Of a stretch of DNA of 64,000 bases, positions 5,949-25,322 are shown in pieces. Each line of letters opens with the position of its first letter. The first letter of the stretch is position 1. Origin of the DNA: Spiroplasma cantharicola (GTDB lineage Bacteria > Bacillota_I > Bacilli_A > Mycoplasmatales > Mycoplasmataceae); the NCBI RefSeq assembly GCF_001281045.1, contig NZ_CP012622.1:62001-126000 (forward strand). The letters run 5' to 3'. Under the pieces are notes generated by a model. The model ran no database searches. It was given only the letters and a program-made list of their open reading frames with translations, and was not told where the DNA came from. Position numbers and translations under genes: made by a program.

Positions 5949-8789
5949 ATGAATAAAAAAATAATTATCAAAGGAGCAAGAGAACATAACTTGAAAAATA
6001 TTGACATTGAAATTCCAAAAGAGAAGCTTGTAGTATTTACAGGACTTTCTGGAAGTGGGAAATCTTCATTAGCTTTTAATACTATTTATGCTGAAGGTGA
6101 AAGGAGATATATTGAATCGCTTTCTTCTTTTTCAAGACAGTTTTTAAAGTCAGTTGAAAAACCAGATGTTGATGAAATAGAAGGTTTAAGTCCAGCAATT
6201 TCAATAGATCAAAAAACAACAAGTCATAATCCAAGATCAACTGTTGGAACAACAACTGAAATCCATGACCATCTTAGATTACTATTTGCAAATATTGGAA
6301 CTCCTTTTTGTGTAAATGGACATGGTCCAATTAAAACTTCTTCTCTTAAAGAAATAATAGAAACTTTAAAAAAGGAAACAAAAGAAGATGATCAAATTTT
6401 TATTTTAGCACCTGTTGTTAGAGATAAAAAAGGAACTCATAAAGATCTTTTTATAAAATTAAAAAGAGAAAATTTTTTAAGAGTACAAATAAATGGAGAA
6501 GTTAGAAATCTTGAAGAAGATATTCAATTAGAACAAAATAAAAGACATAACATTGATATCGTTGTAGATAGATTAATTTTTAAAGCAGGAGATGAAGAGT
6601 TACAGTCAAGAATTTATTCAGCTATTGAAGTAGGTTTGGGTTATTCAAATGGTTTAATAAAAATTTATTATCCAAAAAGAAATAATGAAACTAAATTATT
6701 TTCAACTAAGTATTCTTGTAGTGAGTGTGGATTTTCAATTCCCAATTTAGAAGCAAACTTATTTTCTTTTAATAAAAAAAATGGAGCTTGTGAAACTTGT
6801 TCTGGTCTAGGAGTTAATTTAGAAGCTGATCCAGGTTTAATAATTCCTGACTCATCACTTTCAATTCGCGAAGGTGGTATTTTATATTACAAAAATATTG
6901 TTGATTCAACAAATATTGAATGACAAAAATTTAAATTACTATGTGATTATTATTTAATTGATATAAATTCTCAAATAAATAAGTTAAGTGAAAAACAAAT
7001 TAATGTTATTTTATATGGAAGTGATGAACCAATTGAAACTAAAATAACAACAGTTAGTGGAAATACATTAAGAGCATTTGATTATATTGAGGGAATAGCA
7101 AATATAATTGAAAGAAAATATATTGAAACCAAATCAGAGGACAATAGAAAATATTATGGCAAATATATGATGTCAAAGGTTTGTAAAACTTGCAAAGGTA
7201 AAAGATTAAATGATATTGCTTTAAGTGTAAAAATTAATGATCTTTCAATTGCAGATTTTGTAGAACTAACTATTGAAGAGGAATTAACTTTTTTATTAAA
7301 TTTAAATTTGACTGAGCAACAAGCCAAAATTGCAAGTTTAGTTTTAAATCAACTAGTTTCAAGAATAAGTTTTTTAAATGAGGTAGGGTTAAATTATTTA
7401 ACTCTTTCAAGAAGTGCAACAACTTTATCTGGAGGAGAAGCACAAAGAATTAGATTGGCAAAGCAACTTGGTTCAAAATTATCAGGAGTTCTTTATGTTC
7501 TTGATGAACCGTCAATTGGTTTACATCAAAGAGATAATGATAAATTAATAACTACTCTAAAAAAATTAAGAGATTTAGGAAATACATTAATTGTCGTAGA
7601 ACATGATGAAGATACAATGAAGGCATCAGATTGAATTGTTGATATAGGGCCTGGAGCTGGAATTGAGGGTGGAAATATTACAGCTCAAGGTACATATGAA
7701 GATATTTGTAAAAATCCAAATTCATTAACAGGAAAATATTTATCAAAACAATTATCAATACCTACACCAAAAAAACGTAGGGGTGGGAATGGTTTAAAAA
7801 TTGAAATTAAGGGTGCAACTGAAAATAATTTAAAAAACATCGATGTAACTCTACCATTAGGTAAATTTATTTCTGTTACTGGGGTTAGTGGTAGTGGTAA
7901 ATCAACTTTAGTTGAAGAAGTTATTTATAAAGGATTAAAAAAAGAATTAAATAAAGAGTTAATTCGTCCTGGTAAGTATAAATCAATTAAGGGATGAGAA
8001 AATATTGACAAAATTATTTATGTATCTCAAGATCCAATTGGAAAAACACCAAGATCTAATCCTGCAACTTACACATCTGTTTTTGATGATATTAGAGATC
8101 TTTATACAGAAATTCCAGAATCAAAAATTAGAGGTTATAAAAAAGGAAGATTTAGTTTTAATGTTCCTGGTGGAAGATGTGACTCTTGTTGAGGAGATGG
8201 AGTTGTTCGTGTTGACATGCAATTTCTTGGATATGTTGAAGTGGTTTGTGAAATATGTGATGGTAAAAGATATAATGAAGAAACTCTTCAAATAAAATAT
8301 AGGGGAAAAAATATTTGAAACGTTTTAAATATGACTGTTCAAGAAGCTCATGATTTTTTTGAAAATATTCCTAAGATTAGAGAAAAATTAGAAACAATAT
8401 TAGCTGTTGGTCTTGGTTATATAAAATTAGGTCAAAATGCTACAACTCTTTCTGGGGGAGAAGCACAAAGAGTTAAACTTTCAACTTTCTTATTAAAAAG
8501 ACAAACAGGTAAAACATTATTTTTATTAGATGAACCTACAACAGGATTACATATTGATGATGTAAAAAGATTAATAAGTGTCTTAAATATTTTAGTTGAT
8601 CAAGGAAACACAGTTTTAACAATTGAACATAATCTTGATTTTATAAAAGTTTCAGATTATGTAATTGATTTAGGTCCTGAAGGTGGAAGTGGAGGAGGAA
8701 CAATTCTTGCTACTGGTACACCAGAACAAATAATTGAAAACAAAGAAAGCTTTACAGCAAAATATTTAAAGGAGTATTTAAATGATTAG
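5949..8789 (+). CDS. uvrA: Excinuclease ABC subunit A (UvrA)
   Basis: UvrA is the ABC-type ATPase dimer that scans DNA for bulky lesions and loads UvrB. The 946-residue protein starts [15 protein letters not shown], as UvrA does, and has Walker [10 protein letters not shown] in the first half and GVSGSGKST in the second. Two signature blocks [10 protein letters not shown] are present. Zinc-finger cysteine pairs include CSECGF, CETCSG, CKTCKG, CDSCWG and CEICDG. The Trp in the CDSCWG loop comes from TGA. Length is typical (about 940). The stop overlaps the start of folC by eight bases, so the two are probably translationally coupled. Confidence 0.97.
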
Positions 8790-10599: not shown

Positions 10600-11529
10600 A
10601 TGAGTAAACTTTATGCAAAAAAAATAATTGATGAATTTAAACTAGAAGTTGTTTCAGGTCAAGATAAAATAGAAAATAAAATTGATGTTTATGGAATAAA
10701 TAGAGCTGGCTTGGAATTAACTGGTTACTTTGAAAGTGGAGAAAAATCTCATAGAATAATTGTAATGTCTACAAAAGAATATTTGTACATTATGAATTTT
10801 GAAGAAAAAGAAAGACGATTAAGATATCAAAAACTCTTTTCAAGAAATATTCCAATGATAATTCTTACAGATAAGTTTGAAGATAAATTAGCAATAACTG
10901 TTGCAAAAGAAAGTAACTCATTGCTTGTGAGAACTAGAACAGAATCAACTAGTGATTTTACTCAAAATGTTCTTGAATTTATGGATGATTATTTTGCACC
11001 TCTAATTGAAGTGCACGCTTCATGTGTAAATATTTTTGGTAAAGGTGTTTTATTAATTGGTGAATCTGGAATTGGTAAGTCTGAGATTACTTTAGACTTA
11101 GTTAAAACAAATCATTTATTTGTTGGTGATGATAGAATTGTTATTACTAAAAAATCAAATGAATTATATGGCAAAAGTCATGAAATACTGAAAAATTTAG
11201 TTGAAGTTAGAGGAATTGGAATAGTTGACGTTTCTCAAACTAATGGTTATCAAGTTATATTAGAAAAAACTAAAATTGATCTTGTTATTGAATTAACACA
11301 ATTTAAGAAAAATGGTATCGATGATTCAGAAAGATTAGGAACTTCTTTTGCAACATATGAAATATTAGGAGCTTCAGTTCCTTATATTAAAATACCTGTG
11401 TCTTCAGGAAGAAATATCCCAAACATAATTGAAGCTGCAGTTGCTAAATTAAAAATTAAGCAAAGTGGGCTTTATAAAGATGAAACTCAAATTTTAAGTG
11501 AAAGAGCAATTAAATTTAATAATGATTAA
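10600..11529 (+). CDS. hprK: HPr kinase/phosphorylase
   Basis: HprK phosphorylates Ser46 of HPr with ATP or pyrophosphate and reverses this with phosphate, linking PTS flux to metabolic state. The 309-residue protein has EVHAS (His139), the P-loop GESGIGKS (154-161) and the family signature LVEVRGIGIVDV (200-211). The length matches the family (about 310). Its target HPr is encoded at 42186 with both His15 and Ser46 conserved, so the pair is complete. AGG-type RBS (TTGAGG) lies about 10 bases upstream. Its last eight bases overlap the start of lgt, giving the hprK-lgt-trxB arrangement common in Firmicutes. Confidence 0.96.
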   Translation: MSKLYAKKIIDEFKLEVVSGQDKIENKIDVYGINRAGLELTGYFESGEKSHRIIVMSTKEYLYIMNFEEKERRLRYQKLFSRNIPMIILTDKFEDKLAITVAKESNSLLVRTRTESTSDFTQNVLEFMDDYFAPLIEVHASCVNIFGKGVLLIGESGIGKSEITLDLVKTNHLFVGDDRIVITKKSNELYGKSHEILKNLVEVRGIGIVDVSQTNGYQVILEKTKIDLVIELTQFKKNGIDDSERLGTSFATYEILGASVPYIKIPVSSGRNIPNIIEAAVAKLKIKQSGLYKDETQILSERAIKFNND

Positions 11530-12913
11530 TTTTTTATCTGATGTTATTTGAGAAAATGGAGAAAAGATTCCATATGAATCTGATCCACTATCATTTTTAT
11601 ATTCTCTTTTAGTTGTAACTGGAGTTCTCACTGTAATATTTGTATCAGCTTTTAAATTATATAAAAGAGGTATTCCACTTAAAGATTTTATGAATGGTAT
11701 ATATATATCATTGCCTGTTGGAATAATTGGGGCAAGTATTTTTGGAAAGTTAGGGTCATCAGGGGATCAATGAAAACTTTATATGTTAGTTTTCTTTTGA
11801 GAACCGGGAATGAGTTTTTTTGGTTCAATGCTTTGTGGAGGCACTGCTGCATTTTTGTGATTATGACATAAAAGTAGACAAAGCAGAATTTCGATTTATG
11901 TTTATGCAGATTGTATTGTTCCCAATATTTTATTAGGTCAATCAATTGGAAGATGAGGAAACTTATTTAATCACGAAATATTAGGTAGAGAAGTCCATGA
12001 TTTAAATAAAATAAATTGATTGCCAAATTTTATTTGACATAGATTGTTTTATTTTAAAGACTTAAGTGCATCTTCAGAATTAGATACACTTCAATTTCGT
12101 GAACCCTTATTTTTATATGAATCATTTGCAACTTTATTTCTTTGACTTTTAATTACTTTTGTTTTTGCAAACTTATGAAAAATCATAAGTAAAAAACCTT
12201 GAAAAATAGACCCAGAGAATTTCCCATGTAAAGCAAATAAAACTTTTAAATCTATTTCCGAAGAAAATTTAAAAATCTATAATACTCAAACAACAATTGA
12301 ATATTTGAAGGATAAAGAAGGTAAGCTATATTTGTCAAATTCTTGAGTTTGAAAAAAGGCGTATACATTATATGAACCTTCAAAAGATTTAACTCAAAAG
12401 GCTCAATTTAAAATAGATCAAAGAAAGACATTAGCAATAAAAGCACAAGAAAAATATGTAGCTTTAATTAGAAAAAATAATGAAGAAATACAAAAACAAA
12501 AAAGTAAGTTAGAAAAAAGTAAAATAACAAAGCAAGAATTTAATAATTATAGAATTCAATTAAAAAAAGATAGTAGATCAGAATTAAAAAAATTGAAATT
12601 TGAAAAAAATAGATTTATTAGTTTTTTAAAAAGTGATTCCAAAGAACTTTATGAAATAAATAATCCTAATAGTTATAAAATTATTCACAGTGGAGTATTG
12701 GCAGGAATATACATAGTAGGTTATACTATGATAAGAGTTATTCTTGATCAATTAAGAAACCCATATGAATTAACTGTTAAAAACAATGTTGTTCTAAATT
12801 CCTTATTTTTAACAGGATTTTTGATACTTGGGTTATCTATAATTATATTTGCACAGTTTATTGCTCCAAAAAAATGAAGGGAAGAAGGTTGATTATATGA
12901 AAAATCATATTAA
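11522..12913 (+). CDS. lgt: Prolipoprotein diacylglyceryl transferase paralogue 1, divergent active site
   Basis: Lgt moves diacylglycerol from phosphatidylglycerol onto the lipobox cysteine of prelipoproteins at the membrane. This 463-residue copy keeps the Lgt signature GRWGNLFNHE (143-152: Arg144, Asn147, Glu152) and a C-terminal [10 protein letters not shown] segment. The loop that in Lgt reads MAIHGG is here MSFFGS (97-102), so the conserved His is Phe100. Residues about 210-360 form a long Lys-rich cytoplasmic insertion absent from typical 280-residue Lgt. TGA-Trp codons are frequent, which hides the gene from standard-code ORF finding. It overlaps hprK by 8 bases and trxB by 17. It may have reduced activity, different specificity or an auxiliary role; a second, canonical copy is at 13893. 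Confidence 0.88.
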
Positions 12914-13892: not shown

Positions 13893-15182
13893 ATGTTATA
13901 TGGATGAATACAAAAAGACAACTGAAAAGAAGCAACACAATGATGAACTGTAAGAGATGATTATGGTTTTATTCATGTTTATGCTTTAACTATGACTTTA
14001 GGAGTAATTTTTGCTGTGGGAATTTCAGCTATAAAACTCTATAGAAGAGGCGTATCATTGACTGAACTTTGAATTGGAGCAGCAATTATAGTACCTGTTT
14101 CTTTATTAGGAGCTAGTTTTTTTGGTAAATTAAATGCTGGAGGTTATGGGAAAAATAATAGTGGTTTCTTTGGATTATTTGCATTTTGAAATGGTGGAAT
14201 GGCAATTCACGGGGGAGTTTATATTGGTACTTTAGCTGGATTGATAATATTTTATTTTTTAGGTAGAAGAACTAAAGTTTCATTATGAGTCTACGCCGAT
14301 TGTATAATTCCAAATATTCTTGTTGGTCAAGGAATTGGTAGATGAGGAAATTTCTTTAATCACGAAATATTTGGTAAACCTGTTGCACTATGGAATAATG
14401 GAGATTCAACAGCTTTAAATTGATTACCCTATTTTATAAGAAGAAATATGGTTTGAACTTATGATGGAGATAATGGAGAGACCTTAAATGGATTAGTTCT
14501 TGAAAAAGGTGAGAACTATCTTATGTCACCAATATTTTTATATGAATCAATGAGTTTAATTGCAGCTTGATTAATAATAACTTTTGTAATTCCCAATATT
14601 GGTAAGTGATGTAGTAAAAAGCCTTGAAAAGTAAACCCAGAAGGTTCATTTGAAGGACTTTCTAAATTTAATATTTGAAAAAAAGAAGTTTATGCAAATC
14701 ATCATAAAAAAGAAATCGAATTATATAAAAAAGAAATAGTAAAAATAGATGATAAAAATTACATTAAAAGAAAATGAAAACAAGGAAGACTTTTATCCAA
14801 ATGTAATAACCCTGAAAAATATGTGCTTATTAGATCGGGGGTGCAAGCAGGATCATATTTCTTTGTATGAAACTTAGTAAGACTTATCTTAGAAATAGGA
14901 AGACCAGATGATCATTTATTCCTAATGTATCAAAGAACTTTATCTTTAACCATAATCGCTTTGTCAATGTTCTTTGGTTTATTAGTCGCATTAATGGCTC
15001 AATTTGTTTTTCCATATCTATTTAGAGCAACTGGTTTTATATACGAACAAGAATATTTCTACTTAGACCATGAAAATAATAAGGAGTTTAAAAAGGAAAT
15101 ACAAACAAAAAAAATAGAGAAAAACAAGATCAAAGAAGAAAAAGCAAGACAAAAATTAAAAGAAAAATTAGAAAAAAAATAG
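13893..15182 (+). CDS. lgt: Prolipoprotein diacylglyceryl transferase paralogue 2, canonical motifs
   Basis: This second Lgt (429 residues) has the full motif set: GGMAIHGG with His106, GRWGNFFNHE (149-158, including Arg150, Asn153, Glu158), FLYES, and a late LVRLILEIGRP block equivalent to the C-terminal Arg-containing motif. It also carries an extended, charged cytoplasmic segment before the last helices and a Lys/Glu-rich tail, so it is longer than bacterial Lgt (about 280). It probably supplies most of the diacylglyceryl transfer for lipoproteins such as the BMP protein at 26154. AAAGGTG precedes the start. whiA begins 10 bases after its stop, so the two likely share a transcript. Confidence 0.93.
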
Positions 15183-17276: not shown

Positions 17277-19373
17277 ATGAAAAATATAATATTAGAGCGG
17301 TTAAAGAAAAAAGAAAAAATGCACTTAAATGATTTAATTAATAATATGAATGAAAAGTATGAAAGCGTTACTGATGCTTTAAGAATACTTCAAGAAGATC
17401 ATTTAATAGGATGAAGTAAAGAAAATGTTATTTATTTTGTGGGTGAAAAATATAAAATTGGGTCAATAAAAATAAATGACAAAGGTTTTGGTTTTATAAA
17501 AGAACTGAACAGTGAGGATGATGATTTTTTTGTTCCTCCAAATGGACTTAATGGTTCTATATCTTCTGATGAGGTAATTTTTACTGTTCAAAAGGAAAAT
17601 GATGATAGATTTAAAGCAAATGTTGAAGATGTTATTTTAAGAACAAAAACATCTTTAATTGGTGAAATAAGAAAAAGTAATTGTGGTAGATTTATGGACT
17701 TTATACCAAATGAACCAGGATTTAAAAATTATAGAATTGTATTGGTTAATTCAAAAGATTATAAATTAAAAGAAGATTTAATTATAAAAGTCAAAATATT
17801 AGATGTAAGAGATAGAAAACTTTTTACAAGAATTCAAAAAATAATTGGTGATGCAAATAAAGCAATAGATAGAATTATTTCAATTGCTTATGAATTTGAA
17901 ATAAAACCAGAATTTAATAAGCTGACATTAGATAATGCAATTGAAGTTGCTAAACCAATTGATTATAAAGATGAAAAAATTAAAAGAAGACTTTCAAATT
18001 CTTTAATAAATAAAAATTTAGTGACAATTGATGGAGCGGATTCAAAAGATCTAGATGATGCAATTTATGTTGAAAAAACAAATAATGGATATAAACTTAT
18101 TGTTGCAATTGCTGATGTAAGTTATTATGTAACTCCATTCTCACCTTTGGATAATACAGCTTTATTTAGAGGAAACTCTGTTTATTTAGCAAATAAAGTA
18201 ATACCAATGTTACCTGAAAAATTATCTAATGGAGTTTGTAGTTTAAATCCAAATGAAGAAAAATTATGTATGGTTGCAGAAATGGATTTTGATTTAAAAG
18301 GAAATGTAATAAGCAAAAAAGTATATGAATCAATTATGATTTCAAAAGCACGTCTAACTTATAAAGAAGTTAATGAGCTATACAATAATAATAAAGTGGA
18401 AATTAAAAAAGAAATTATTGATATGTTAATGACTGCAAAAGAGCTTCATGAAATTATTGATTTAGAAAGATCAAATAGAGGAGCAATTGAATTTGATATT
18501 GCAGAACCAAAAATAATATTAGATAAAGATTCAAATGTCATTGAAATTGCAAAACGTGGAAGAGGTATTAGTGAAAAACTTATTGAAAATTTTATGGTAA
18601 GTGCAAATGAGTGTGTGGCAAGTATCATCTTTGAAAAAAAATTACCTTTTATTTATAGAAATCATGATGTTCCAAAAGAAGAAAATCTTATTGAATGACA
18701 TTCAATTTTGAGAGCTTTAGGAGTAAATGTTAAATTAACTGATTTAGATAAAATTAATCCAAAAATGATTAAGCAAGCTTTAAGTCAAATTGAAAGTCAG
18801 ATAACGGATTCAACTGAAAGAGATGTTATTAATGTAACTCTATTAAAATTTATGGAAAAAGCTGCTTATGAATTGGAAAATATAGGACACTTTGGATTAG
18901 CAAGTGCTTGTTATACACATTTCACAAGTCCAATTAGAAGATATAGTGATTTGATTGTTCATAGATTTTTAAAACAATATTTAATTTCAAAAGATTTAAG
19001 AGAACAGAAATTAGAACAAAATAAAAATTTTGTTCTAAAAGCTTGTGCTATTATTAATGATACAGAAAAACAAGCTGTTTCTGCCGAAAGAGAAGTTAAT
19101 AAAGTTTGTATGGCTGAGTATATGCAATCTAAAATTGGTCAAGAGTATGAAGGAATTGTTGCTGCAGTATTAAAGTTTGGGATTTTTGTACAACTAGAAA
19201 ATTGTGTTGAAGGTTTAATTCATATTTCAGAGTTACCTGATTTTACTTTTGAAGAAAAGACAAATATTATGGTAAATAAACAAAATAAAATATTTAGATT
19301 AGGTCAGAAAATAAAAATTAAAGTAAAAAATGCAGATGTTAAAAAAAGAATTATAGACTTTGTGCTTGTTTAA
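17277..19373 (+). CDS. rnr: Ribonuclease R (RNB-family exoribonuclease)
   Basis: RNase R degrades structured RNA from the 3' end and, with tmRNA-SmpB, removes nonstop mRNAs. The 698-residue product has an N-terminal winged-helix-like region, a cold-shock domain (residues about 60-120, KINDKGFGFIKE), the RNB catalytic domain with IDGADSKDLDDAIY (metal-binding Asp cluster) and HFTSPIRRYSDLIVHR, and a C-terminal S1 domain containing YEGIVAAVLKFGIFVQL. The basic C-terminal tail of E. coli RNase R is missing. The start at 17277 extends the open frame upstream through a TGA-Trp. smpB begins 14 bases after the stop. Confidence 0.95.
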
Positions 19374-19387
19374 CGGTGGTGATTAAA

Positions 19388-19828
19388 ATGGGTGAGCATG
19401 TATTATTAAAAAATAAAAAAGCATATTTTAATTATGAAATACTTGATAGTTGAGAAGTTGGAATAGTTTTAACTGGGCCAGAAATAAAATCAATTAGAAA
19501 TAAAGATGTTTCAATTGAGGAATCATTTGTTCTTATTAGAAAAGGTCAAGTGGAAATTTTAAATATGAATATAAAAAATTATGAATTTGCAAATAACATT
19601 AAATTAGATGCAACTAGAAATAGAATTTTACTCTTACACAAAAGTGAAATAAAAAAAATAATAAAAAGAGTGCAACTTGAAAATCTTACATTAGTTCCTT
19701 TAAAATTATATTTAAAAGATAATTTGGCTAAGTTGGAACTTGGATTAGCAAAAGGGAAAAGAGAAATTGACAAAAGAGAAACAATTAAAAAAAGAGATAT
19801 TGAAAGAAGATTAAATAAGATTAAGTAA
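19388..19828 (+). CDS. smpB: SsrA-binding protein SmpB
   Basis: SmpB binds the tRNA-like end of tmRNA and carries it to stalled ribosomes. The 146-residue product includes the conserved [20 protein letters not shown] segment and ends with the basic [20 protein letters not shown] tail that reaches the decoding centre. Trp36-equivalent is coded by TGA, so the N-terminal third is missed with the standard code. GGTGGTGA serves as RBS. Its RNA partner ssrA is encoded 950 bases downstream on the same strand. Confidence 0.95.
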
Positions 19829-20101: not shown

Positions 20102-20121
20102 TTTTTGAAATTGTTTAAAAT

Positions 20122-20151
20122 AAAAAACACCATTTTAAAATGGTGTTTTTT
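20122..20151. terminator. Bidirectional terminator between convergent membrane genes
   Basis: A 15-bp perfect palindrome centred between 20136 and 20137 (AAAAAACACCATTTT and its complement) with A and T tracts on its two sides terminates both converging transcripts. Confidence 0.9.
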
Positions 20152-20154
20152 ATT

Positions 20155-20610
20155 TTAAACTTCTTTATTTTGATCGTTTTCAGTTACATTAACAGTTGGG
20201 TTTAAATTTGTATTATTTTCTTTTTTGAATTTATTATATTCAACACAAATCATAATTCCACTTGCTAACATTAAAGCCGAAGGAATCAAACTCAATAATG
20301 CATATGTACTTGTCAATATTGTTAATAAAGATAATCCAGATACCACTATTTCAATAATTCCGGCAGCTAAGATTCTCTTCTCATTTTTTGATTTCAAAAA
20401 AACTAATATTAATATATATAATATTAATGAAATACCTAATGACACAATTAGAAAACCAATTACAAATGTAGTAACGATGTCACTTTCAATTAAACCTGGT
20501 TCCTGTTGCAAGGCTATTGCTCCCAATATTGCAATCACTGTTACTAGTGAACTGAAAACTATGGAAATTATAACGCCTGCTAGTCCTAAACCTTTTGATG
20601 TTTTAGTCAT
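20155..20610 (-). CDS. Four-helix membrane protein, function unknown
   Basis: A 151-residue minus-strand protein with four predicted membrane segments (about residues 10-33, 46-72, 79-99, 103-122), linked by short loops, then a polar tail rich in Asn, Thr and Lys. GAGGAG lies 11 bases before the start. The Gly/Ala/Ser-rich first helix and the overall plan resemble the DUF4064/DUF4190-type small membrane proteins, but I cannot assign it. It faces the 19886 gene and shares its terminator. Open frames seen on the plus strand here are shadows. Confidence 0.75.
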   Translation of the reverse strand: MTKTSKGLGLAGVIISIVFSSLVTVIAILGAIALQQEPGLIESDIVTTFVIGFLIVSLGISLILYILILVFLKSKNEKRILAAGIIEIVVSGLSLLTILTSTYALLSLIPSALMLASGIMICVEYNKFKKENNTNLNPTVNVTENDQNKEV

Positions 20611-20780: not shown

Positions 20781-21196
20781 GGGGGTGTCCCGGTTTCGAC
20801 AGGATACAGCTGACTCATAACTGCAGTGGTCTGGTAGACCTTAATACTTCTAGGTTTGATAAAATGCAAACGAAGAAAAAAATGAATTTGAAATGCCAGC
20901 ATTTATGATCAATAATGCATCAGCTGGAGTTGCTTTAGCAGCTTAATAAACTTTTTTAAAGTTTATAGTGTTTCAACGTTATGAAGTGTGTTTGTGCTTC
21001 ATTGATTAACGTATTACCTAGCACAATAGAACAAATGACTCTAATAATAAGTTTGTTTGAAAAATCATTATTAGCGCTAAAAATTTAAATCTTGTTGGCT
21101 CTGTTGGTTTTTTAGCGTAAGTTAGAGACAACTAAACTGTAGACGTTATGGGTTGGAGTATTTTGGACGCGGGTTCGATTCCCGCCATCTCCACCA
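20781..21196 (+). ncRNA. ssrA: tmRNA
   Basis: tmRNA rescues stalled ribosomes and tags their products. The 5' end GGGGGTGTCCCGGTTTCGAC pairs with the 3' end CATCTCC ahead of ACCA (seven pairs with two G-U). The T arm GGGTTCGATTCCC lies at the 3' end and CCA is encoded, ending at 21196. The tag reading frame runs 20866-20943 with stops TAA TAA: 26 codons, first residue Ala, beginning ANEEKNEFEM and ending SAGVALAA. Its partner smpB is upstream. The interior contains hairpins consistent with the pseudoknot region, for example ATAAACTT with AAGTTTAT at about 20946-20965. Confidence 0.97.
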
Positions 21197-21240: not shown

Positions 21241-23187
21241 ATGGATATTATAAATGTTTTGATTACATGTCTTTCTTATACAGCAATTATTGCTTTTTGT
21301 TATACATTACTTTGAGGTTTAACAAGACATCTTTTTAAAAAAATAGAAGTGTATTATGAAATTCTTTTAGGTTTTATTTTAGGTTTTGTATCAACTTTTT
21401 CTCTTATTATAATTTCAATATTGGGAATTAATACTGGAAATTTAGGTATAACAATTTTATTGCCAACATTCTTATATTGAGTTGCAATTGTCTTTATTTC
21501 TCCATTTAGTGGAATTGGAATTCTAGTTTGTAATATTTTAAATTTAGCTGTTTTTTCTTCACTCTTTAGCGATTACTTTGGTAAGCCAACTGGTATTTGA
21601 AATATAACAATGCTTACATTAGCTTATATAATTCCTCTTGTGAATTATATAATTTCAACTTTTTGAATTAAAATCTCAAAGTGATCAAGTTGATCTATAA
21701 CTACAATTAGTATACTTATAGTTGGCCTAATTTGAGCATTATCTACAATCAAAACTGCACCATCACTTGATAATTTAGCCAACTTACTTTTTTGATTAGG
21801 AAGTGGTTATTTGGCTTATGCATATATTGCAGTTATAAATCAAATTTATTTACATGCATTAAAACTTCAAAATATTGTAGTTTATGATAATACTTATTAT
21901 TTGAATTTTACTTCAGCACATGATCAAATTTTAAATAAAATTCAAGATGAAAAATATAAATATGGCTTATATATAACTTACTTTATTTCAAATTTTGAAA
22001 AATTTGAATCAAAGGTTAATGGTTATATAAGAGAGCAAGTTGTAAATTCAATTTCAGAAGAAAGTTACAATTTACTACAAGAAGAATTTCCTAAAGCAAT
22101 ATTTTTTAAACCAAATTATAAAACTTTTGGTGTGTTTGTGCCTTTTGAATTAAAAGAAGATTTTAGTGAAAAAAATAATTTAAAACTGGAGAAAATAAAA
22201 AGTATTTTTTCTACAGTTAATACTTCATTTAATATTAGTAATTATAAAATTAGTGTAAAGTTAAAATCAGTTTGCTCTTTTTATGGTTTGCATTCAAATA
22301 ATTTAGATACTCTATTAGAATATAATTTACATGTTGAAAATGATTTACTACTTAAATATCAAGATGAAAATATTGTTGTTAATCCAATGGAAATAATAAA
22401 AGAGAAAAATCAAAATAAGAAAATGTTATCTTTAAATGAAATTGCTAATTTAAATCAGTTTGTAACTTTGTTTGAACCGATATACTATACAAGAACAAAT
22501 GATTTTGAATATTATTTTTTAAATGGTCTTATAGATGGTTTAGAAATAAATGCAGATGAGTTTTCTCAAAAAAATAAATTAATATTTGATATGGGATTAT
22601 CAACATTATTTTTAAGATATACTTCATTTCACTCATTAAAAAAAATGGCTAAGCAAAGTGAAAAAATAAAAAATAAAAAATTCTTTATAAGCTATGACAG
22701 TAATTATTTATCAGATAAAGAATTTGATGCTGAAGAATTTATTTTAAAATTAAAAAATCTTAAAATAGATTTATCAAAAATAGTACTTAATTTTGATATA
22801 AATAAAGAAGTAGATGATAAAAAAGAATTAGAAAAAAATATTGAAAAATTGAAAAGTCACTCAATACAAATATCAATAAGTAATTTTGGTTCACTTAAAA
22901 CTGATTTTGCTTTATTAAACTCTTACAAACCAGAATTTATTTTTTTAGAAAATGAAATATCAAAAAAAATAAATTTTGTTAAGGAAAATGAAAAAATAGT
23001 AATTGAAAGTCTTAAAATAGCAAATAAATTGGAAGCAAAATTAGTAGCTTCTTCAGTAAATAGTTATTTAATTTATAAACATCTTAAACTTTTAGGAGTA
23101 GAATTATTCACTGGTGAACTAATTGGAAGTTCAGTAGAACCTAGAGAAAATATTTCAGATGAGTTAAAATATTTATTAAATAAATAG
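21241..23187 (+). CDS. Membrane protein with degenerate GGDEF-like and EAL-like domains
   Basis: A 648-residue protein. Residues 1-205 form about six to seven membrane helices. Residues 240-345 resemble a GGDEF fold (YFISNFEKFESKVNGYI matches the D-x-x-x-F-K region), without a GGDEF motif. Residues 405-635 follow the EAL phosphodiesterase pattern in order: FEPIYYTR at the start, SISNFGSL where DDFGTG should be (547-552), a PEFIFLE strand where lKID normally lies, ASSVN in place of AEGVE (603-607), and LGVELFTGELIG in place of the lG-QGYl end. All metal and catalytic acids appear lost. A role as a pseudo-enzyme sensor is inference. TGA-Trp codons hide the N-terminal third. mgtE starts 20 bases downstream. 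Confidence 0.65.
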
Positions 23188-23207: not shown

Positions 23208-24650
23208 ATGTTAGAAAGAGAAGAAAAATTAAAGACGTTAAGTGAAGAAATTGAAAAGGTAATTAATGCAAATAATATTAAAGAATTAAGAAAGTTAGAA
23301 GAGGAGCATTACCCTCAAGATATTGCAGAAGCTCTTGAAAAATTGGAAGATAAAATTACAATTGTGGCATTAAGATTATTTACAAATGATACAAGTAGTG
23401 AAATATTTCCTCACCTTGATGCAGATATACAAGAGGAAATAATAAATAAAATGTCTTCTAAGCAAGTAAGTCTATTATTTTCTGAATTATATACAGATGA
23501 TATTGTTGATATATTAGAAGAGATGCCTTCAAACATAGTTAAAAAAATTTTAAGATCTTCAACTCCAGAAACTAGAGCTCAAATAAATAGTATTTTAAAA
23601 TATAATGATGATACTGCTGGAAGTATCATGAGTGTTGATTATACTAGATTCAAAATAAATTGAACTGTAACAGAAGCCATTGAAAAAATAAGAGAAAGAG
23701 ATGAAGAATCGGAAGATCATAATACGTTTTATGTTGTAGATGATTTAAATAATTTAAAGGGAATTGTTGAATTAAAAGACTTAGTCTTTTCAAAAGGTGA
23801 AACTCTTTTATCTGAAATAATGGATGAAAGAGTTATCTTTGCTCGTACAAAAGATGATCAAGAAAGCGTTATAGAGTTATTTAAAAAATATGATATTACA
23901 ACTCTTCCAGTTATTAATGTTCAACAAAAACTTGTAGGTATTGTTACAGTTGATGATGTCTTAGATGTAATTGAAGAAGAAGTAACTGAGGACATTCATA
24001 AAATGGCTGGTATAAGTCCAACAGATGATGAATATTTTAAAACAAGTATTTGAAAAATGGTTAGGTCTAGAAGTGTTTGACTATTACTATTAATGTTATC
24101 TGCAACATTTTCACAAATTATAATTTCAGTATTTATAAAAATTTATCATTCAAAAAGTGGCAGTCAAGGAATCTCAGATCAAAACTCAATAAGTTATATT
24201 ATTATGATTTTATTAGCTCCCTTGTTAACTGTAATTTCTGGAACAACAGGGAATGCTGGAAGTCAATCTTCTACAATGATTGTTCGAGCTTTATCTTTAA
24301 AAGAAGTTGAAACAAAAGATTATGCTAGAGTAATGTGGAAGGAATTTAGAGTAGCTATTATTACAGGTTTAATATTAGTGACAGTTAACTTTGTAAGAAT
24401 GATAATTATTTATTCTATTGAATTTAAAGGGAATTTAAGTAATCCTAACTTATGATATACAATTGCTACAATTTCAATTGCAATGTATTTATCATTAATA
24501 ATGGCTAAATTAGTTGGGGGAACTCTTCCAATAATTGCTAAAAAACTTAAATTAGATCCAGCAATTATGGCATCACCATTATTAACAACTCTTGTTGACG
24601 CATTATCAACAGCTTTATTCTTTTCTGTAGGTTTAATTTTCTTTATATAA
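23208..24650 (+). CDS. mgtE: Magnesium transporter MgtE
   Basis: MgtE is a homodimeric Mg2+ channel gated by its cytoplasmic domains. The 480-residue product has the N-terminal superhelical domain (HYPQDIAEALEKLE, FSELYTDDIVDILEEMP), two CBS domains (about residues 140-265; TTLPVINVQQKLVGIVTVDD in the second), a connecting helix and five C-terminal membrane helices. The conserved pore motif appears as TTGNAGSQSS, and PLLTTLVDALSTALFF matches the last helix. Length is slightly above the 450 typical. TGA-Trp codons occur near 23661, 24051 and 24450. GGGAGG lies upstream. It probably shares a transcript with the upstream GGDEF/EAL-like gene and with trmB 21 bases downstream. Confidence 0.95.
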
Positions 24651-24671: not shown

Positions 24672-25322
24672 ATGAGATTAAGAAATAAAAATTGAACAAA
24701 AAATTTCATTGAAGAAAATTTAAAATACTTAATAACTACAGAAGAAAAAATTAATGCAAGTAAATTATTTTCTAAAAAGCAAGATACTTTTTTAGAAATT
24801 GGTTGTGGTAAAGGTCAATTTATAATTGAACAAGCAAAAAATAAATCTAATAAAAATTTTATTGCTATGGAAAAAGAAACAACTGTAATGGGAGTTGCTT
24901 TAAAAAAAGCTATCAATCAGGAAAATTTTGATCTTAAAAATTTATTATTTTTAAATCGCTTTGCTGAAAATTTGTTAGATATATTTGAGCGGAATTCTTT
25001 AAAAGGAATATTCTTAAATTTTTCAGACCCATGACCAAAAGCAAAACACTTTAAAAAAAGATTAACTTATCTAAAGTTTTTAGAAATTTATTGAGACCTA
25101 TTAGCAGATAATGGTATTATTGAAATTAAAACAGATAATGATCAATTATATGATTTTAGTTTGGAACAAATTAAAGACTCTAAGTTTAAAATTATTTATG
25201 AAACAAATGATTTATATTCTAATAAGGAGTTTCTAAAAGATAATATTCAAACCGAGTATGAACAGAAGTTCTATGCACTTGGGAAAAAAATTAAAAAAAT
25301 TGTAATAAAAAAAGAGGTTTAG
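24672..25322 (+). CDS. trmB: tRNA (guanine-N7-)-methyltransferase
   Basis: TrmB makes m7G46 in tRNA variable loops using S-adenosylmethionine. The 216-residue protein opens MRLRNKNW (as many TrmB do), has the SAM-binding LEIGCGKGQFI (about residues 41-51), the catalytic block FLNFSDPWPKAKHFKKRL and a late GIIEIKTDN. Two of the Trp codons are TGA, so no long standard-code frame exists. Its last four bases overlap the convergent minus-strand gene, and a terminator stem begins inside its last codons. Confidence 0.93.

Follow-up and report, generated by a model that had tools for sequence, protein, structure and literature searches.

Structures with bound c-di-GMP exist for the EAL domains of FimX and of YkuI from B. 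subtilis, and CdaR, the partner of the membrane diadenylate cyclase CdaA in Bacillales, carries YbbR repeats outside the membrane. In LapD, control over a dead GGDEF-EAL module can come from a helix that emerges from the membrane (PMC3032553). Among mollicutes, gene U1 of Ca. Oceanoplasma callogorgiae, from a deep-sea coral, has an EAL match and a transmembrane segment, and was read as a possible use of c-di-GMP in a group that otherwise uses c-di-AMP (PMC11535214). The essential c-di-AMP synthase of mollicutes, CdaM, lacks a sensory domain and crosses the membrane with one helix; how it is controlled has yet to be explained (PMC5508000). Here we analyze a membrane protein from a 64,000-nucleotide stretch of DNA (the window) that appears, from its sequence and those of its relatives, to be a dead GGDEF-EAL transducer that is unexpectedly tied to c-di-AMP synthesis. 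A literature search, which took in papers outside subscription access, found none describing this family.

EALp, our working name for this protein and its orthologues, is encoded by an open reading frame that fills exactly positions 21241-23187 of the forward strand and contains eight TGA codons read as tryptophan under code 4 (Table 1). Our reading is that the window belongs to the Apis clade of Spiroplasma. An automatic pipeline would probably label the gene ‘EAL domain-containing protein’. The membrane domain is predicted by the positive-inside rule to be oriented N-out/C-in; the loops between its helices are short, and it contains the conserved residues Y21, G26, R29, Y38, Y39 and G44.

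Table 1. Features of the EALp locus, in window coordinates.
Feature	Position	Strand	Remarks
rnr (RNase R)	17277..19373	+	Conserved ancestral neighborhood; name from sequence and established knowledge
smpB	19376..19828	+	Conserved ancestral neighborhood
ssrA (tmRNA)	20781..21196	+	Ends 44 nt before EALp
EALp CDS	21241..23187	+	648 aa, code 4; 7TM - degenerate GGDEF - degenerate EAL
EALp membrane domain	21241..21846	+	aa 1-202, 6-7 predicted TM helices
EALp linker	21847..21915	+	aa 203-225, conserved Y.HA.KLQN..YD...YY
EALp degenerate GGDEF-like domain	21952..22368	+	aa ~238-376
NYKTF replacing GGDEF	22114..22128	+	aa 292-296; from alignment and column counts
EALp degenerate EAL domain	22447..23127	+	aa 403-629
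SNFGSL replacing DDFGTG	22879..22896	+	aa 547-552
ASSVN replacing AEGVE	23047..23061	+	aa 603-607
mgtE	23208..24650	+	Starts 20 nt after EALp; elsewhere cdaM lies between them
trmB	24672..25322	+	Adjoins EALp in the citri clade (without mgtE)

The original prediction, of degenerate GGDEF and EAL domains in a membrane protein, is borne out. The Pfam EAL family (PF00563) matches with an E value of 6.8e-20 (71.9 bits, above the curated cut-off of 31.3), which places EALp in this family as a fold. The same match was found in all 31 scanned members from the window’s family (f1), and with a profile built from 31 relatives, EAL phosphodiesterases of solved structure are matched at E 1e-15. EAL is the only Pfam family that EALp and its relatives match credibly; GGDEF (PF00990) gave no match in EALp up to E 1. 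In a profile–profile comparison (hhalign), residues 203-380 aligned with six GGDEF domains over 169 columns at E 2e-4, with unrelated controls at 0.05 or worse. Using a model of the cytoplasmic part as query, the best full-length Foldseek matches were all tandem GGDEF-EAL structures, a further similarity to the GGDEF fold that comes from a low-confidence model; the structure matches include LapD, FimX and YkuI, and the EAL domains of the latter two stand high in the list. VIA-align superposed the EAL part with a Z of ~14 and an rmsd of 2.6 over 151 residues. Because the models were built from only 4 sequences, their confidence is low (pLDDT 53 and 46), and they therefore support the fold class only, the domain orientation being unreadable at the rmsd of >13 seen in two-domain matches. 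Together, these comparisons support the EAL fold firmly and the GGDEF fold moderately. There is little to favor GdpP as the source of the GGDEF part, which aligns to the GGDEF domain of GdpP at E 0.0099 and to ordinary GGDEF domains at 3e-4.

Judged by alignment, both active sites have been lost. At the EAL catalytic positions, assigned by alignment with PdeR, CdnP and others, the window protein has S484, N517, S547-N548, F568, S604 and T624 where the seven canonical metal- and substrate-binding residues are N, E, D-D, K, E and Q, so that it does not have the residues of a c-di-GMP phosphodiesterase. The substitutions SNFGSL and ASSVN, first noticed in this sequence alone, fall at the predicted positions. 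Among the 92 relatives, the number of these residues retained is zero in 62, one in 24, two in 4 and three in 2. The GGDEF-like domain likewise departs from a diguanylate cyclase, with NYKTF in place of GG(D/E)EF; the motif is replaced in the f1 relatives as well, and the position of the first metal-binding aspartate is I249, invariantly isoleucine or valine in f1. The former catalytic columns of the EAL domain have a mean entropy of 2.32, compared to 1.98 for random columns of the domain, and in 89% of random sets of eight columns conservation is equal or higher. The former active site thus shows no extra conservation within the domain, which argues against a nucleotide sensor using that pocket. 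Of the suggestion of a repurposed nucleotide or lipid sensor, ‘repurposed’ is still the most apt part. Rather, conservation is strongest in the linker from TM7 to the GGDEF-like domain (residues 203-220, Y.HA.KLQN..YD) and in the GGDEF core, which carries the motifs FFK...FG.F.P and S.YG.HSN...L...N; further conserved residues are scattered over the membrane part and the EAL scaffold. Such a pattern fits a scaffold that transmits signals and does not fit a ligand pocket taken over from an EAL enzyme. The linker may resemble the S helix found in LapD (PMC3032553).

The gene order in relatives links this scaffold to a cyclase. With an E cut-off of 0.01, a profile built from distant members detected the EALp family in 98 of 320 genomes examined from the order, a count that includes two weak matches in f11 (another group) and three near-threshold fragments or doubtful matches; 217 of 317 genomes encode a diadenylate cyclase (DAC). 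In 30 loci from four families (f3, f5, f7 and f8), EALp lies directly upstream of a DAC gene on the same strand, with gaps of -14 to +119 nt, and in two more loci (f4) the two are separated by two genes. The four downstream cyclases examined with Pfam were confirmed (4e-37 to 8e-31) and are membrane diadenylate cyclases of the CdaM kind. Because the EALp gene stands directly before cdaM in these relatives, EALp becomes a candidate for regulating another second messenger, c-di-AMP. In f3, f5, f7 and f8, mgtE often follows the DAC gene. The locus is dismantled in f8; there the EALp-DAC pair persists in 17 loci, compared to ~3 with rnr directly upstream and 3 with mgtE after the DAC gene; the EALp-DAC link is therefore the most durable. 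In loci missing EALp, DAC often directly precedes mgtE, as EALp often does in loci missing DAC. An ancestral cluster rnr-smpB-EALp-cdaM-mgtE followed by separate losses appears to be the simplest history.

Several further arrangements were seen. At locus L083 in genome G068, the EALp homologue (6601-8523) is followed directly by a tandem pair of diadenylate cyclase genes. Genomes of genus g43 (L171 in G281; L194 in G278) differ at what seems to be a single locus: some carry EALp-mgtE and no DAC, others DAC-mgtE and no EALp. Large open reading frames upstream of cdaM in EALp-less mycoplasmas were considered as extreme EALp homologues; on reading, those found are unrelated.

The two genes also occur apart. 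DAC is present and EALp absent in 172 genomes, so the cyclase can do without EALp; in f8, the reverse holds for nine genomes. DAC (PF02457) was found in none of the 60 f1 genomes, with controls working, nor in the window genome among them, so the proposed partner is absent there. On the EALp tree, a quick tree whose deep branches are weak, the absence of DAC needs three changes (f1, g43 and g46). c-di-AMP synthesis seems to have been lost in Spiroplasma and its relatives.

We therefore favor, with middling confidence, a reading in which EALp is a catalytically dead membrane GGDEF-EAL transducer that was ancestrally a partner of CdaM and has another partner in Spiroplasma today. In such a mechanism, the membrane domain would sense a membrane, osmotic or ionic condition, and the conserved TM7-linker would relay the signal to the GGDEF-like domain. 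As output, EALp would make a protein contact, with neither catalysis nor c-di-GMP binding, and the original partner would be the diadenylate cyclase CdaM. In Spiroplasma, where the cyclase has been lost, EALp would now act on a different partner; MgtE could serve as such only in lineages that still have it. A stronger version, which we put forward tentatively, holds that the family is the missing membrane-sensing regulator of CdaM, using GGDEF-EAL as a pure protein-interaction module, and that in Spiroplasma it has outlived its messenger and acquired a new target.

The gene order in f1 is rnr-smpB-ssrA-EALp-mgtE-trmB, with local insertions, and becomes EALp-trmB in the citri clade (g8, with S. 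poulsonii and S. phoeniceum). In the window, a small predicted membrane protein (20155-20610, reverse strand; tandem copies in L108) lies between smpB and ssrA, and a 20-bp stem-loop with a T-rich tail (20113-20160) forms a strong terminator-like element 3' of smpB. Farther upstream, two open reading frames (11498-12913 and 13893-15182), which we read as paralogous prolipoprotein diacylglyceryl transferases, flank a gene that reads as thioredoxin-reductase-like.

Another reading makes EALp a magnesium or envelope regulator acting on MgtE, as its likely cotranscription with mgtE first hinted. The two genes are close neighbors in the window and adjoin in most of f1, nearly everywhere outside the citri clade, and mgtE belongs to the ancestral EALp locus. 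Against this, mgtE was not detected in the four citri-clade genomes tested (G164, G172, G175 and G177), three of which hold EALp, and seven f1 genomes, from other genera, keep mgtE without EALp. The survey of conservation beside mgtE thus bore out the association for most of f1, whereas in f3, f5, f7 and f8 the direct neighbor is DAC. We consider this role rather unlikely. In Spiroplasma, EALp thus persists without the gene of its proposed ancestral partner, CdaM, and in the citri clade without mgtE as well. The mgtE-less citri-clade genomes may rely on another Mg2+ transporter.

Little credence attaches to a post-transcriptional regulator that would work, as CsrD does, with a ribonuclease, here the adjacently encoded RNase R: CsrD too is a membrane-bound dead GGDEF-EAL protein, and rnr-smpB lies upstream of EALp in many loci, but both genes are found away from EALp in the citri clade and in most f8 loci.

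A dead receptor of c-di-GMP, of the LapD or FimX type, would share with EALp the domain order and membrane anchoring, and both proteins appear among its structure matches. Such a receptor is very doubtful here, because its messenger has no visible source: no GGDEF cyclase was found in the window genome or f1, and practically none in the whole order, where the single match above the threshold is a GGDEF domain of the GdpP type. Neither the window genome nor f1 has an EAL protein other than EALp, and PilZ was absent from the five f1 genomes tested, in line with the general view that mollicutes lack c-di-GMP signaling. The EAL pocket positions of EALp are unconserved, and Pfam finds no HAMP domain.

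That EALp is a relic without present function, as had also been proposed, is almost certainly wrong even though all catalytic motifs are gone and some families have a further truncated EAL part, because selection on it is purifying and the gene is kept across the genus. Its dN/dS, 0.05-0.24 across the 11 pairs with measurable dS, is far below 1, in a range similar to that of its neighbors mgtE and trmB, and is low in every domain examined. Every one of the 20 genomes of the window’s genus has a single copy of EALp; in f1 as a whole, 41 of 60 genomes have it, with full length in every f1 locus read except one. EALp is absent from one citri-clade genome and from g2, g3, g7, g11 and g12, which presumably represent the Mesoplasma/mycoides group. 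The EALp tree follows the host families (again with weak deep branches in a quick tree), showing vertical inheritance.

Searches beyond these genomes added few relatives. In a collection of genome contigs, a single-sequence search with EALp returned none and a profile search returned three named Spiroplasma EALp loci; a profile search of viral contigs found none. Among 296 genomes of the class, a profile search matched other proteins only in the EAL part or, at most, slightly beyond it; the idea that the 7TM part belongs to a known family outside the order found no support in these genomes, in which an outside relative of the membrane domain did not turn up. Other mollicute proteins of ~530-625 aa (L091, L092, L093, L094-L097 in f11, and L098-L101 in f2, f3 and f7) have one TM helix, at the N terminus, and end in a degenerate EAL-like part; their similarity to the EALp profile is clear for f11 (E 8e-10) and L100 and weak for the others.

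The EALp family offers a concrete candidate for the control of the mollicute c-di-AMP synthase in the lineages that have it. It keeps GGDEF-EAL scaffolds under selection in an order with practically no c-di-GMP machinery, and Spiroplasma and its relatives constitute a bacterial family without a detectable diadenylate cyclase. If the stronger version, with EALp as the missing regulator of CdaM, is right, an undescribed family couples a scaffold of the c-di-GMP type to c-di-AMP synthesis.

Several known systems resemble EALp in part. The paper describing U1 does not describe the EALp family, and the likeness between them is by description only. YkuI and FimX share the EAL fold with EALp, but have no 7TM part. 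CsrD (E. coli) has the same dead pair of domains (GGDEF replaced by HRSDF) at the membrane, but differs in the membrane part, and no Csr/RNase E system is known in the EALp host. GdpP, a c-di-AMP phosphodiesterase, combines a membrane part and a degenerate GGDEF domain in a c-di-AMP context; by Pfam, EALp does not have its DHH-DHHA1 domain. LapD of Pseudomonas shares the membrane anchor, two dead cytoplasmic domains and a helix joining the membrane to GGDEF. By contrast, EALp has ~7 TM helices and, by Pfam, neither the HAMP nor the periplasmic output domain of LapD; its EAL pocket is unconserved, and its genome has no c-di-GMP system. With CdaR, finally, the EALp relatives share the arrangement of a membrane protein encoded directly beside a membrane diadenylate cyclase, seen in those 30 loci and not in the window genome, and EALp differs from CdaR in having no YbbR domains by Pfam.
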